A stretch of DNA of 64,000 bases from an uncultured Atopobiaceae bacterium (lineage in GTDB: Bacteria; Actinomycetota; Coriobacteriia; Coriobacteriales; Atopobiaceae). Below, in pieces: positions 6,158 through 57,438 of the stretch (the first letter of the stretch is position 1; each line of letters starts with the position of its first letter). The notes under the pieces are model-generated. The model was not told the DNA's origin and did not search any database. It saw nothing but the letters and a program-made list of their open reading frames with translations. The DNA is taken from contig CALUHH010000001.1 of the NCBI GenBank assembly GCA_944320385.1, forward strand, positions 62,001 to 126,000, in the 5' to 3' direction. A program made the translations under genes and the position numbers.

Positions 6158-8845
6158 CTAGCCCTGGTTCTTCTCGATGGAGCGCATGACGGCCTTGTAG
6201 ACCTCCATGATCGGGATGATCAGGAAGGCCAGGCCGAGCGCGGCGGCGAGCGCCTCCATCGGGAGCTCCATGAAGCCGAACATATCGGCCAGCAGCGGCA
6301 CCTCGACCACGATGACGGTGAGGATGAGGGCCAGGATCGCGGCACCCCACAGCCACTTGTTCTGCTTCTTCATGGAGAACAGCGACGCGCGGCGGCTGCG
6401 CATGTTGAAGCAGTGGAAGATCTCGACCATCGAGAGGGTGATGAACGCCATGGTGACGCCCTCCTCGTCGGCGGTGCCCGCGATCATGTCGGCGATGTTG
6501 ATGTAGCCCATGTCGAGGTAGACGCCCACGAAGAACGAGGCCAGGACCAGGATGGTGATGACGATGCCCTGGAAGAGAATGTCGACGCCCATGCCGCCCG
6601 CGAAGACGCCGTCAGAGGCCTTGCGCGGCTTGCGCTTCATGATGTCGCCCTCGGCCTCCTCCATGCCGAGCGCCAGCGCCGGGAAGCAGTCCGTGATGAG
6701 GTTGATCCAGAGCAGCTGGACCGGCTGGAAGATCGTGAAGCCCACGAGCGTGGCCACGAAGACCGAGAGCACCTCGGCGATGTTGGCGGAGAGCAGGAAC
6801 TGGATGACCTTGCGGATGTTGTCGTAGATCCTGCGGCCCTCCTCCACCGCGTTGATGATGGTGGCGAAGTTGTCGTCTGCCAGGACCATGTCGGCCACGT
6901 TCTTGGTGACGTCGGTGCCGGTGATGCCCATGCCCACGCCGATGTCGGCACGCTTGATGGACGGGGCGTCGTTCACGCCGTCGCCGGTCATGGCCACGAT
7001 CTTGTCGCGGCTCTTCCAGGCGTCGACGATGCGGGCCTTGTGCTCGGGCTGGACGCGAGCGTAGACGCTGTACTCGGTGACCTTCTCCTTGAAGTCCTCG
7101 TCGGAGATCTTGTCGAGCTGGGCGCCGGTGATGGCCTCGGAGGCGTCCTGGCAGATGCCGAGGTTCTTTGCGATGGCCACGGCGGTGTCGATGTGGTCGC
7201 CGGTGATCATGACCGGGCGGATGCCGGCCTCCTTGGCCTCGGCGATAGCCGGGGCGACCTCAGGACGCTCGGGGTCGATCATGCCGGAGAGGCCCACGAA
7301 GACGAGGTCGTGCTCGAGCGCCTCGGGGCTACAGTCGGCGGGCAGCGCCTTGTGCATGCGCACGGCGGAGGCGAGCACGCGCAGCGCCTGGTTGGCCATG
7401 TCCTTGTTGGCGGCCATGATCTTCTCGCGGCGGGCGTCGGTCAGGGTCTCGACGGTGCCGTCGGCGTTCATGACCTGGGTGCAGCGGCCGAGTACCACGT
7501 CGGGGCCGCCCTTGGTGTACTGCTCGAAGGTGCCCTCGGGGGTCTTCACCACGACGGACATCATCTTGCGGCCGGAGTCGAACGGCGCCTCGCCCACGCG
7601 CTCGTAGCGCTCGGCGTTGCCGTTCTCGTAGAAGCCGAGCTTGGCGGCGTCGTTGACGAGCGCGCACTCGGTGGGCTCGCCCACGGCCTCGCCCTTCTCG
7701 GCGTCCCACTTGGCGTCGGAGCACAGGGCCATGGCGCGCACGTGCAGGTCGTCGGGGCCCTCGACCTCGTGCTTGGTGACGGTCATCTTGTTCTGCGTGA
7801 GGGTGCCCGTCTTGTCCGAGCAGATGATCTGGGTGCAGCCGAGCGTCTCGACGGCGGTCATCTTGCGGATGATGGCCTGGCGCTTGGACATCTTGGTGAC
7901 GCCCATGGAAAGCACGATCGTGACCACGGCCACGAGGCCCTCGGGGATGGCGGCGACGGCCAACGACACGGCGACCATGAAGGTGTCGAGGATCATCTCG
8001 GGGTTGGAGCCGAGCTCGCCGCCGTGGCGGATGAGGTCGACGGCAAAGATGATCACGCAGATCGCGAGCACCAGCTTGGTGAGGATGCCGGAGAGCTCGT
8101 TGAGCTTGATCTGGAGCGGCGTGAGCTCCTTCTTGGCGGTAGTGAGGGCGTCGGCGATCTTGCCCATCTCGGTCTTCATGCCGGTCGCGGCGACGACGGC
8201 GCGGCCGCGGCCGTAGACCACGGTGGAGCCCATGTAGCACATGTTCTTGCGGTCGCCCAGGGGCACGTCGTCGGTGCCGGCGTCAAGCACGATCGGCTCG
8301 ACGTGCTTCTCCACGGGCACGGACTCGCCGGTGAGGGCGGCCTCCTCGATCTTCATCGAGGCGCTCTCCAGGACGCGGCAGTCCGCGGGCACGGAGTCGC
8401 CGGCCTCGAGAAGGACGATGTCGCCGGGCACGAGGTCGGCGGAGGGCAGGTGGGTCAGCTTGCCGTCGCGAATGACCTTGGACTGCGCGGCGCTCATCTG
8501 CTGCAGGGCCTCGAGCGCCTGCTCCGACTTTGCCTCCTGCACGACACCGAGGACGGAGTTGATGATGACGACGGCCATGATGATGATGACGTCGGCCCAC
8601 TCGGACTCGCCCTGGATGGTGCCGGTGATCGCCGAGATGGCGGCGGCCACGATGAGCATGATGACCATCGGGTCGGCCATCTGCTCGAAGAAGCGCTTCC
8701 AGAGCGGGGTCTTCTCCTCCTTCTCCAGCTCGTTGGGCCCGTACTGGGCCAGGCGAGACGACGCCTCGCCCGCGCTGAGGCCGCCCTCCTCGTCAGAGGA
8801 CAGCTCGCTCAGCACCTCGTCCTTGGGTACCAAGTACTCCTTCAT
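6158..8845 (-). CDS. Cation-transporting P-type ATPase, Ca2+ (P2A) type
   Basis: An 895-residue integral membrane pump that exports Ca2+ using ATP. The phosphorylation motif ICSDKTGTLTQNKMTV, the TGES actuator loop (LTGESVPVEKH), the hinge TGDGVNDAPSIKRADIGVGMG and membrane helix 4 with AAIPEGLVAVVTIVLSMG are all present, which fits the PacL/SERCA-like class. Length matches the family, with about ten membrane segments and a C-terminal cation-ATPase block. ATG 8845 follows CAGGAGGGG. Upstream, CCCCTTCCTGGGGAA on the minus strand can pair with the ribosome-site region TTCCCAGGAGGGG, and a TATGAT -10-like sequence lies at about 8888-8893; which of these matters depends on where transcription starts. 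Confidence 0.93.
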   Translation of the reverse strand: MKEYLVPKDEVLSELSSDEEGGLSAGEASSRLAQYGPNELEKEEKTPLWKRFFEQMADPMVIMLIVAAAISAITGTIQGESEWADVIIIMAVVIINSVLGVVQEAKSEQALEALQQMSAAQSKVIRDGKLTHLPSADLVPGDIVLLEAGDSVPADCRVLESASMKIEEAALTGESVPVEKHVEPIVLDAGTDDVPLGDRKNMCYMGSTVVYGRGRAVVAATGMKTEMGKIADALTTAKKELTPLQIKLNELSGILTKLVLAICVIIFAVDLIRHGGELGSNPEMILDTFMVAVSLAVAAIPEGLVAVVTIVLSMGVTKMSKRQAIIRKMTAVETLGCTQIICSDKTGTLTQNKMTVTKHEVEGPDDLHVRAMALCSDAKWDAEKGEAVGEPTECALVNDAAKLGFYENGNAERYERVGEAPFDSGRKMMSVVVKTPEGTFEQYTKGGPDVVLGRCTQVMNADGTVETLTDARREKIMAANKDMANQALRVLASAVRMHKALPADCSPEALEHDLVFVGLSGMIDPERPEVAPAIAEAKEAGIRPVMITGDHIDTAVAIAKNLGICQDASEAITGAQLDKISDEDFKEKVTEYSVYARVQPEHKARIVDAWKSRDKIVAMTGDGVNDAPSIKRADIGVGMGITGTDVTKNVADMVLADDNFATIINAVEEGRRIYDNIRKVIQFLLSANIAEVLSVFVATLVGFTIFQPVQLLWINLITDCFPALALGMEEAEGDIMKRKPRKASDGVFAGGMGVDILFQGIVITILVLASFFVGVYLDMGYINIADMIAGTADEEGVTMAFITLSMVEIFHCFNMRSRRASLFSMKKQNKWLWGAAILALILTVIVVEVPLLADMFGFMELPMEALAAALGLAFLIIPIMEVYKAVMRSIEKNQG

Positions 8846-11475: not shown

Positions 11476-12924
11476 ATGGCATTCAACAAGAAGAAGACCA
11501 AGATCGTCTGTACGATGGGTCCCGCCGTCGAGGACGAGGAGGTGCTGCGTCAGCTCATCCTGCACGGCATGAACGTCGCGCGCTTCAACTTCTCCCATGG
11601 TAGCCACGAGTACCACCGCAAGAACATCGAGCGCGTCCGCGCGCTCTCCCGCGAGCTCGCCATCCCCGTTGCCATCATGCTCGACACCAAGGGCCCCGAG
11701 GTCCGCACGGGCCTGCTCAAGGACGGCAAGAAGGTCACGCTCGTGACCGGCGAGACCTGCGTCATCACCACCGACGACAACGTCGAGGGCACCGCGGAGC
11801 GCTTCTCGCTCGACTACAAGAACCTCCCCAACGAGGTCGAGGAGGGCACCGTCATCCTCATCGACGACGGCCTGATCGGCCTGGAGGTCGCGAGCGTCGA
11901 GGGCACCGACATCACCTGCAAGATCACCAACGGCGGCGAGCTCGGCGAGCGCAAGGGCGTCAACTTCCCCAACCTCAACATCAACCTCCCGTCCGTCACC
12001 GCCCAGGACCGCGCGGACATCATGTTTGGCTGCGAGCTCGGCATCGACGCCATCGCGGCCTCCTTCATCCGCGACGGCGAGGCCGTGCAGGAGATCCGCA
12101 AGATCTGCATCGAGATGGGCACTCCCAACGTCTTGATCTTCCCCAAGATCGAGAGCGCCCTGGGCGTCAAGAACTTCGACGAGATCCTCCACGCCGCCGA
12201 CGGCTGCATGGTCGCCCGCGGCGACCTGGGCGTCGAGGTTCCCGCGGCGCAGGTCCCGCACATCCAGAAGACCATCATCCGCAAGTGCAACGAGCACTAC
12301 AAGCCGGTCATCACTGCCACGCAGATGCTCGACTCCATGCAGCGCAACCCGCGCCCGACCCGCGCCGAGATCACCGACGTCGCCAACGCCGTCTACGACG
12401 GCACCGACTGCGTCATGCTCTCCGGCGAGACCGCAGCCGGCAAGTATCCGATCGAGGCCGTCAAGACGATGTCCGACATCTGCAAGGAGACCGAAAAGTA
12501 CCTGCCCGAGCGCAAGGAGTACCACGAGCGCGGCGGAATGCGCAACGTCAGCGGCGCGACCGGCTTCGCCGCGCTCGAGATGGCCGACCGCGTGGGCGCC
12601 AAGTGCATCCTCGCCCCCACCAACTCCGGCCGCTCCGCGCGCCTCATCTCCACCTTCCGCCCGAAGGTGCCGCTGTTCGCCACCTCCCCCAACGAGCAGA
12701 CCATCCGTCGCACCTGCTTCTACTGGGGCGTCTACGCGTACCGCACCACCGAGCAGGGGTCGCTGTCGAGCACGCTCTACAACGCGCTGACCACCGCCAA
12801 GCTCAACAACCTCGTCGACACCGGCGACATCGTGGTCATCACCGCCGGCGACCCGCAGACCTCGCCGCGCTTGGGCGACTACACCACCTCCACCAACATG
12901 GCGATGGTGGCCCAGGTCCAGTAG
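11476..12924 (+). CDS. pyk: Pyruvate kinase
   Basis: A 482-residue glycolytic enzyme converting phosphoenolpyruvate and ADP to pyruvate and ATP. Seen in order: NFSHGSHEYH, MLDTKGPEVRTG, the active-site block PKIESALGVKNFDEIL followed by ARGDLGVE, and TATQMLDSM followed by MLSGETAAGKYP. The C-terminal allosteric domain is complete, and the length is typical for single-domain-set bacterial enzymes without the extra PEP-utiliser domain. ATG 11476 has GAAAGGG upstream. Its 3' end is followed at once by a strong terminator. Confidence 0.97.
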   Translation: MAFNKKKTKIVCTMGPAVEDEEVLRQLILHGMNVARFNFSHGSHEYHRKNIERVRALSRELAIPVAIMLDTKGPEVRTGLLKDGKKVTLVTGETCVITTDDNVEGTAERFSLDYKNLPNEVEEGTVILIDDGLIGLEVASVEGTDITCKITNGGELGERKGVNFPNLNINLPSVTAQDRADIMFGCELGIDAIAASFIRDGEAVQEIRKICIEMGTPNVLIFPKIESALGVKNFDEILHAADGCMVARGDLGVEVPAAQVPHIQKTIIRKCNEHYKPVITATQMLDSMQRNPRPTRAEITDVANAVYDGTDCVMLSGETAAGKYPIEAVKTMSDICKETEKYLPERKEYHERGGMRNVSGATGFAALEMADRVGAKCILAPTNSGRSARLISTFRPKVPLFATSPNEQTIRRTCFYWGVYAYRTTEQGSLSSTLYNALTTAKLNNLVDTGDIVVITAGDPQTSPRLGDYTTSTNMAMVAQVQ

Positions 12925-12951: not shown

Positions 12952-12981
12952 GGCCCGCCGGTCTTCCTAGGCCGGCGGGCC
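12952..12981 (+). terminator. Terminator of pyk
   Basis: GGCCCGCCGG (12952-12961) pairs with CCGGCGGGCC (12972-12981), followed by CCTTGCTGCTT. It lies 27 nt past the stop codon. Confidence 0.7.
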
Positions 12982-12987
12982 CCTTGC

Positions 12988-13303
12988 TGCTTAAATAAAG
13001 CCGTCCATCCGGAAATCTGCGCCTTCGCTGCTTAAAGATTGCCTCCCATCCGGTAGCCCGGCCCGGTGACGCTTAAAGATCTTCTCCCATTCAGGAAACC
13101 CCCTCGTACTTGTTTAGTTATTCTCGCTCATCCAGCGAGAAGAACGCTCGATGCTTAAGGTTTGCCGCCCATCCTGAAGGCGCACAGACGAACCTTCAGG
13201 ATGGGCGGCGTTCTTTAAGCGGAGACGCGCCCGCCATCCGGATGGGCGCCGATCTTTAAGCGTCGCCGGGCCGGGCCCCCGGATGAGAGCCGATCATTAA
13301 GCG
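12988..13303. repeat. Mirrored array of eight 25-29 bp repeats with a 41-bp period
   Basis: The repeat begins YGCTTAAAGAT and ends CCCATCCGG. Forward copies start at 12988, 13029, 13070, 13111 (degenerate) and 13152. Reverse copies end at 13221, 13262 and 13303. Every step is exactly 41 bp. Copies 13152-13180 and 13193-13221 form a near-perfect hairpin around a 12-nt loop, and the 15-16 bp spacers differ from one another. The array fills the gap between convergent pyk and the amylase gene. The spacers are too short for a CRISPR array. It could be an ordered protein-binding array or a laddered RNA structure. Confidence 0.85.
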
Positions 13304-13328: not shown

Positions 13329-14678
13329 CTACCGCTCGCAGCGCCAGTAGTACGCGGAGTAGGGCTTGAGCTCGGAGCCGCCACCGAAGTCGTGCTCCGC
13401 GCCGGTGATGAGGTCCACCGCGCGGCCGCACTGGGCGTCGAAGTGCACCGTCGCGGGCTCGCCGCTGGCGTTGATCGCCACGATCACGCGCTCGTAGGTC
13501 CCGTGCTCGCCACCGGCGTAGGTGCGCTGGAACACCAGCTGCTGGGGCTGGCACTGGAGCTGCGCGTAGTCGCCCCACACGAGTGCCGTCGAGTCCTCGC
13601 GGGCGCGCGCGATCGCCGCGATCCAGTCGGTGAGCACGCCCCACTCCGGCGCGTCGAGCGCCGGGCGCAGCTCGTGGTCGCCCGGAAGCTGCTCACCCTC
13701 GATCCCCCACTCGGAGCCGTAGTAGACCGCGGGCACGCCGCTCATCGCAAAGAGCAGGCCGTAGAGCGGGACCAGCTGGTTCTTGTCGTCCAGCTTGGTG
13801 GCGATGCGCGGCACGTCGTGGTTGTCCACGAAGTCGAGCATGTGACGGCCGGTGTAGAGGTCCCACGGCTGGCTGCCGCTCTGACGCTCCAGCGCGTAGG
13901 CGATCTCGTGCATGTTGGCGGCGTTCATCGACGACCACAGGCCCTTGTACGCCTCGTAGTTGGTCACCGCGTCGCAGAGGTCCTCGCCCATCCACTGGTT
14001 GTAGTCGCCGAACATGGTCTCGCCCACCAGCGGGAACTTCTCGCCCCGCTCGTTGCCGATCTGGTTGGCGAGGTTGCGCAGGAAGCGAAGGAATCCCTGG
14101 TCAAGACAGTAGGCCACATCAAGGCGCAGGCCGTCGATGTCAAACTCGCGCACCCAGCCGCGGATGACATCGGCCAGGTAGTCGTTGAGCTCGCCGCTCC
14201 AGTGGTTGAGCTTCACGAGGTTCTGGGCGCCCTCCCAGCAGCTGTAGGAGAGGCCGTCGTTGAAGCAGTTGTTGCCGTTGAAGTCGATCTCGAACCAGCC
14301 GGCATAGGGGCTCTCCCCGCGACGGGCGAGCACGTCCTGGAACGCCCAGAAGCCACGCCCCACGTGGTTGAACACGCCGTCCAGCAAGACCTTGATGCCG
14401 GCCTCGTGGCAGGCGTCCACCACGCGCCGCAGGTCCTCGTTGGTTCCCAGGCGGCAGTCGACCTTGGTGTAGTCGCGCGTGTCGTAGCCGTGCGCGTCCG
14501 ACTCGAAGACGGGGTTGAGCAGCAGGCACGTGGCACCGAGCCGGGCCATGTGCTCGATCCAGCCGTTGTCGATGAGCTGCAGGATGCGATGTTCGAGAAC
14601 GCCGTCGTTCTCGTACGGGGCGCCGGTGAGGCCCAGCGGATACACCTGATAGACAAAGGACGGCTCGTACCAGCTCAT
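13329..14678 (-). CDS. GH13 alpha-amylase-family glycosidase
   Basis: This 449-residue protein has no signal peptide, so it likely acts on imported maltodextrins in the cytoplasm. The GH13 conserved regions are present: LLDGVFNH (about 98-105), DGLRLDVAY with nucleophile Asp187, LVGETM with acid Glu220, and FVDNHD with Asp288. The compact size and the absence of N-terminal accessory modules fit maltodextrin glucosidase or neopullulanase-like small amylases. ATG 14678 is preferred because GAGGAG lies 8 nt upstream; the frame extends to 14726. It is alone, convergent with pyk across the 41-bp repeat array. Confidence 0.92.
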   Translation of the reverse strand: MSWYEPSFVYQVYPLGLTGAPYENDGVLEHRILQLIDNGWIEHMARLGATCLLLNPVFESDAHGYDTRDYTKVDCRLGTNEDLRRVVDACHEAGIKVLLDGVFNHVGRGFWAFQDVLARRGESPYAGWFEIDFNGNNCFNDGLSYSCWEGAQNLVKLNHWSGELNDYLADVIRGWVREFDIDGLRLDVAYCLDQGFLRFLRNLANQIGNERGEKFPLVGETMFGDYNQWMGEDLCDAVTNYEAYKGLWSSMNAANMHEIAYALERQSGSQPWDLYTGRHMLDFVDNHDVPRIATKLDDKNQLVPLYGLLFAMSGVPAVYYGSEWGIEGEQLPGDHELRPALDAPEWGVLTDWIAAIARAREDSTALVWGDYAQLQCQPQQLVFQRTYAGGEHGTYERVIVAINASGEPATVHFDAQCGRAVDLITGAEHDFGGGSELKPYSAYYWRCER

Positions 14679-57283: not shown

Positions 57284-57310
57284 CGACGCTTCTGCCAAAT
57301 CGGCCGACCC

Positions 57311-57438
57311 TGCGACATTGCACGCCTTTGGCACCGAGAAGACCCCGGTCTGTGCGATATGGCATGCTCGACCGAACTTGCGATATTGCACGCTTTTTCT
57401 GCTGAGAAGAGCCTGTTCTGTGCGATATGGCATGCTCG
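57311..57438. repeat. Tandem 60-bp repeat with four TGCGATAT-type motifs
   Basis: Two 60-bp copies (57311-57370 and 57379-57438) agree at roughly three quarters of positions. Each holds two versions of TGCGATATKGCAYGC, giving four motifs at 57311, 57353, 57379 and 57421. They lie in a 468-bp gap (57230-57697) that otherwise shows only the mscL hairpin and no gene. Confidence 0.75.

Follow-up and report, generated by a model that had tools for sequence, protein, structure and literature searches.

Helically phased, convergent arrays of a short DNA sequence in an Atopobiaceae bacterium and related species

The genome of an uncultured gut bacterium of the Atopobiaceae related to Olsenella sp. 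An293 contains about 58 arrays in which a short DNA sequence is repeated about every four helical turns toward a mirror point, in a manner that keeps all copies on one face of the DNA. This arrangement points to an unknown DNA-binding protein whose target sequence differs from species to species, although this reading is inferred from sequence alone. Comparable arrays are present in 11 more species of the genus and in one species of a second genus, and were absent from the other genomes searched. Nearly every array is convergent, and all are intergenic, usually just 3' of genes. Each unit has a constant half (GCTTA) and a half that differs between species but is shared by nearly all arrays of one genome.

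The Array in the Window

The window analyzed is a stretch of 64,000 nucleotides (contig CALUHH010000001.1 of assembly GCA_944320385.1, positions 62,001 to 126,000). An earlier note, made from the sequence of the window alone, described eight copies of a repeat, five forward and three reverse, at an exact 41-bp period, and this observation is confirmed by the present analysis (Table 1). The eight units are each 24 bp in length and are spaced by exactly 41 bp within each arm (four steps and two steps), but by 65 bp across the center, so that the 41-bp step, contrary to the note, does not span the mirror point. The fourth forward unit is degenerate (GTTTAGTT...). The center is a 28-nt inverted repeat, 86% complementary, with a 12-nt loop. 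A motif model learned over 29 loci of the genome gives all eight units scores of 18–37, whereas no hit of 11 or more was found in a shuffled 252-kb control; the model shows a unit YGCTTARRRATYGCSNCYCRTCCGG, with weak conservation in the spacer. The array lies between the convergent 3' ends of the genes for pyruvate kinase and a GH13 α-amylase.

Table 1. Coordinates of the array in the window, its neighbors, and other features. Positions without a prefix are those of the window; L1 to L5 are units of the forward arm, and three-digit L numbers (such as L101) designate loci retrieved from the genomes searched.
Position	Strand	Feature	Observation
11476..12924	+	Pyruvate kinase gene; 3' end faces the array	Gene call; Pfam PK and PK_C
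12952..12981	+	13-bp inverted repeat (hairpin) between pyk and the array	
12989..13012	+	Forward unit L1 (outermost)	Score 31.5
13030..13053	+	Forward unit L2	Score 36.8; 41 bp from L1
13071..13094	+	Forward unit L3	Score 30.8; 41-bp step
13112..13135	+	Forward unit L4, degenerate	Score 18.0; 41-bp step
13137..13145	+	Second spacer motif GAGAAGAAC (family GAGAAGRRC)	24 bp into the L4 period
13153..13176	+	Forward unit L5 (innermost)	Score 34.1; 41-bp step
13177..13196		Center (mirror point)	L5-to-R1 spacing 65 bp, one rung of the 10.4-bp ladder
13197..13220	-	Reverse unit R1 (innermost)	Score 34.9
13238..13261	-	Reverse unit R2	Score 33.8; 41-bp step
13279..13302	-	Reverse unit R3 (outermost)	Score 31.9; 41-bp step
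13329..14678	-	GH13 α-amylase gene; 3' end faces the array	About 23 bp from the array
57300-57438		Two-copy tandem repeat of 68 bp	81% matches; unrelated to the arrays as far as seen
L101:3950-4420, L106:4488-4958, L105:2638-3095		Array and flanks almost identical in three species	2 differing bases in about 457 aligned
L097:2002-3971		C-5 cytosine methyltransferase fragment and MutH-type (Sau3AI-like) protein	Next to an array of the source genome
L009:3860-4762, L170:6975-7874 (also delimited as 6972-7874), L183:3345-4268, L143:124-1020		Protein family of about 300 aa	Next to or between arrays in four species; no Pfam match

Distribution of the Arrays

A search of the source genome (2.24 Mb, 58 contigs; designated G000) with the array gave 62 BLAST matches, a model of two neighboring units gave 193, and a simple GCTTA/TCC pair pattern at 41 bp gave 230, against none for the reversed control pattern. 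The retrieved loci yielded 57 array groups, some of them cut by contig ends, and one further array near position 133k of contig C2 was not among the loci retrieved. The note had named an isolated low-complexity expansion as the condition that would refute it, and this is excluded by these searches and by those of related genomes described below. Many contigs of this draft genome (C7, C8, C15, C18, C19, C20, C24, C39, C46, C49, C52, and C56) end inside or within a few hundred bases of arrays, so the arrays appear to break the assembly.

Three GCTTA boxes at 41-bp steps recur in 12 of the 31 genomes of the genus examined (including G000 but not counting a further genome with a single match) and in one genome of another genus of the family (G088); single matches elsewhere look like chance. 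The counts range from 202 matches in G000 and 108 in G001 down to 2 in G020, whereas 19 of the 31 genomes gave no match or only one, so the system is dispensable. A four-box pattern found nothing outside the genus in a sample of 396 genomes of the phylum, and the pair pattern found nothing outside the genus in 397 genomes of the order. In viral contigs, there was no match of the pair pattern of the source genome, although three stretches with four GCTTA at 41 bp were present. The named relatives with arrays of the G000 type are Olsenella sp. An293 and uncultured Atopobiaceae.

Across species, the first half, GCTTA (then A/T near +7/+8), stays constant, but the second half is CYCRTCCGG in G000, CGGGGTTRTGGCA in G019, GNYYGTTGCGG in G042, CCNTTGGAGGG in G010, G001, and G045, CATCGCR in G009, CTCGTCCGG in G018, and CTAGNCCTCATGYGGRTT in G088. 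The second motif, GAGAAGRRC, occurs at fixed phases in the spacers, with at least one copy in 92 of 114 arrays scanned, but is lacking in all scanned arrays of G088.

Helical Register across the Mirror Point

Over 12 genomes, the orientations of neighboring units are ++ in 325 cases, -- in 303, and +- in 106, but -+ in only 3, so the arrays are almost always convergent. The tandem steps are 41 bp (514) or 42 bp (92), with rare exceptions including 52 and 81–84 bp. The spacings across the center take only values of 55, 64–66, 75–76, 85–87, 96–97, 107–108, 117, 128, 137–139, and 149 bp, and the best fitting period is 10.42–10.45 bp, with R = 0.947 for 97 non-redundant centers. Spacings of 107 bp and above could be smaller ones with one decayed unit, but restriction to spacings of 100 bp or less gives the same result (n = 83, R = 0.947). 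It should also be noted that some arrays and species share ancestry, so the rungs of this ladder are not fully independent; with one count per genome and value (n = 42), R is 0.93, and none of 20,000 random sets reached it. The GCTTA boxes on the two sides of the center are 5.07, 6.03, 7.03–7.08, 8.04, or 9.09 turns apart. All GCTTA boxes of an array therefore face the same side of B-DNA, and the proposal of the note that all copies lie on one side of the helix is strongly borne out.

The interpretation offered in the note is thus supported in part, because its second proposal, that RNA from either strand would form a ladder of in-register stems, is not supported. The array in the window does fold strongly (−179.7 kcal/mol, z −13.6), and the location of the arrays 3' of genes, with enrichment between convergent genes, would suit a terminator or an mRNA-stabilizing or regulatory RNA. 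However, if RNA pairing mattered, units of equal rank in the two arms should resemble each other most, and they are no more alike (0.699) than units at neighboring unequal ranks (0.685–0.697), so there is no in-register covariation between the arms. Arrays with swapped arms fold almost as well as real ones (−50.2 against −52.9 kcal/mol per 100 nt), and units alone do not fold better than shuffles (mean −3.5 against −4.4). In-register arm pairing is a property of the copy in the window and not of the family, and the strong fold of this copy follows from inverted copies of one motif plus some local arm homology. No Rfam family matched at the gathering score, the matches being at chance level only, and loop lengths restricted to whole helical turns make sense only on double-stranded DNA. 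An RNA element is therefore considered unlikely. RNA-guided recognition was also rejected, because C-to-T and A-to-G changes in the half-site were not favored over G-to-A and T-to-C changes in a way that fits G-U wobble. In a comparison directed at replacement of intrinsic terminators, terminator-like hairpins were few at either array-facing or other 3' ends, too few to be informative.

Genomic Location and Evolution

Among arrays with both neighboring genes called, 25 lie between convergent, 45 between co-directional, and 8 between divergent genes, although in the loci of the source genome convergent pairs make up only 36 of 278 neighboring gene pairs. The median distance is about 56 bp to 3' ends and about 165 bp to 5' ends. 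Thirteen of 61 sampled arrays of relatives sit next to the orthologue of a gene that also has an array in the source genome, against a rough chance expectation of 3–4. In G018, the orthologue of the amylase flanking the window array (97.6% identical) also has an array 22 bp from its 3' end, and some arrays of different species share both flanks but carry different half-sites (L023/L171 and L087/L185).

In one orthologous pair (G010/G045), motif positions are 92% identical, compared with about 60% elsewhere in the array, but this difference is inflated by unit turnover and by an alignment guided by the motif. Some inner units are duplicated and units turn over, as tandem duplication without function would predict, but the retention of motif positions in hundreds of units whose spacers are randomized, the helical ladder at the mirror point, and the appearance of the same design in independent species make this explanation very unlikely.

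A selfish mobile element, in which the units are binding sites of a transposase or recombinase and the arrays are cargo-less elements that spread and differ in specificity between species, is the main rival reading, though doubtful. It is favored by the very uneven copy number (about 58 arrays in one species and none in most), by the resemblance of a species-shared half-site with a constant half to terminal-repeat recognition, and by the almost identical array shared by three species. The latter lies beside a T5orf172 (GIY-YIG-like) protein and a putative DNA methyltransferase, and two of the three species otherwise carry a different half-site, which suggests recent transfer or recombination; a second restriction-modification-like locus lies next to an array of the source genome (L097, Table 1). 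However, only 10 pairs of arrays in the source genome share 88% or more identity over 60 bp and spacers are near-random between arrays, so few of them are recent copies of each other, positions are shared between species above chance, and arms of 2–9 helically phased units are unlike the transposon ends known to us.

Comparison with Known Systems

REP and BIME elements (GTAG- and CGTC-tagged families; PMC3733652) likewise have many intergenic copies, mostly 3' of genes and between convergent or co-directional genes, are found in both orientations, and are partly species-specific. The units described here, however, are not palindromic, as shown by their self-folding energies, and their order is convergent rather than alternating, with a period of 41–42 bp and helical phasing across the center. 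The constant part is GCTTA rather than a GTAG or CGTC tag; a CRTC core occurs only in some species (G000, G009, G016, and G018) and is not constant. Nor does the presence of arrays track RAYT genes. G019 (99% complete) has arrays but no Y1_Tnp, while many array-less genomes have several, and no unit lies within the about 1.5-kb flanks of the four Y1_Tnp (RAYT-like) genes of the source genome (L037, L038, L039, and L040), of which L037 appears to carry a C-terminal helix-turn-helix. Mobilization by RAYT transposases is thus largely refuted.

The sites of ParB, Noc, SlmA, and MatP are also dispersed double-stranded DNA sites, tens per chromosome, but are short palindromes used singly, whereas the present units are asymmetric, bipartite, and arranged in arrays. 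No extra ParB-family protein accompanies the arrays, since one ParB_N gene is present in most genomes with or without them. CRISPR arrays share short repeats at fixed spacing, but are composed of near-identical repeats in one direction with unique spacers; the present units are degenerate (about 70% alike) and inverted at a center. Clustered operators with helical phasing and DNA looping, such as those of the lac or lambda repressor, resemble the arrays in having direct repeats on one face of the DNA and a spacing dependence in steps of one helical turn, but here there are dozens of loci per genome with up to 15 units each, a mirror point, and a half-site that changes between species. The note stated that no named element of this form was known, and this held in every test made here. 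No family tested shares the defining features of the element, which is consequently regarded as new in kind, although this rests partly on literature searches, of an incomplete collection, that found no description.

Interpretation

The strict phasing, orientation, retained motif positions, and concerted change of the half-site point to a protein that binds each unit, contacts its neighbor four turns away, and contacts its mirror partner across the center. The explanation favored, with moderate confidence, is that the arrays are operator-like double-stranded DNA binding arrays for an unidentified, lineage-specific protein of evolving specificity. In this view, each 24-bp unit would be one asymmetric, bipartite site, with a constant half GCTTAnnnAW and a variable half; subunits would bind head to tail every 41–42 bp, and the two convergent rows would meet at the mirror point in helical register, so that all subunits sit on one face of the DNA and form one cooperative assembly or loop. 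It should be recognized that the arrays themselves, their spacing and orientation, the helical ladder, the constant and variable halves, the intergenic 3' location, and the patchy presence in one genus and one species of another rest directly on the analysis, whereas the protein, its binding to the units, its cooperativity, and its role are inferences. Neither Y1_Tnp nor ParB-family genes track the arrays, and the protein family of about 300 residues found near arrays in four species (Table 1), which may be disrupted in the source genome, lies at only two or three loci and is not convincing as the cognate protein. The most likely role is that of an architectural, insulating, or transcription-blocking boundary at gene ends, but a selfish origin is not excluded.

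A more far-reaching reading, which is possible but tentative, is that the arrays belong to a previously undescribed bacterial nucleoprotein system, confined as far as searched to one Atopobiaceae genus and one species of another, in which a cooperative protein polymerizes along the arrays at dozens of gene ends to organize or insulate the chromosome. The recognition half-site would then evolve in concert across all loci of a genome while array positions are partly kept, a bacterial parallel to fast-evolving satellite/centromere-protein or PRDM9-type pairs.

If the favored explanation is correct, these are the most regularly built dispersed DNA elements known to us in a bacterial chromosome, and the 10.4-bp ladder at the mirror point reads out a protein-DNA assembly from sequence alone. 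They also mark an unknown protein that could be sought in a cultured gut isolate, and the concerted change of one half-site across nearly all arrays of a species is a natural experiment in how a DNA-binding protein and dozens of its sites co-evolve.
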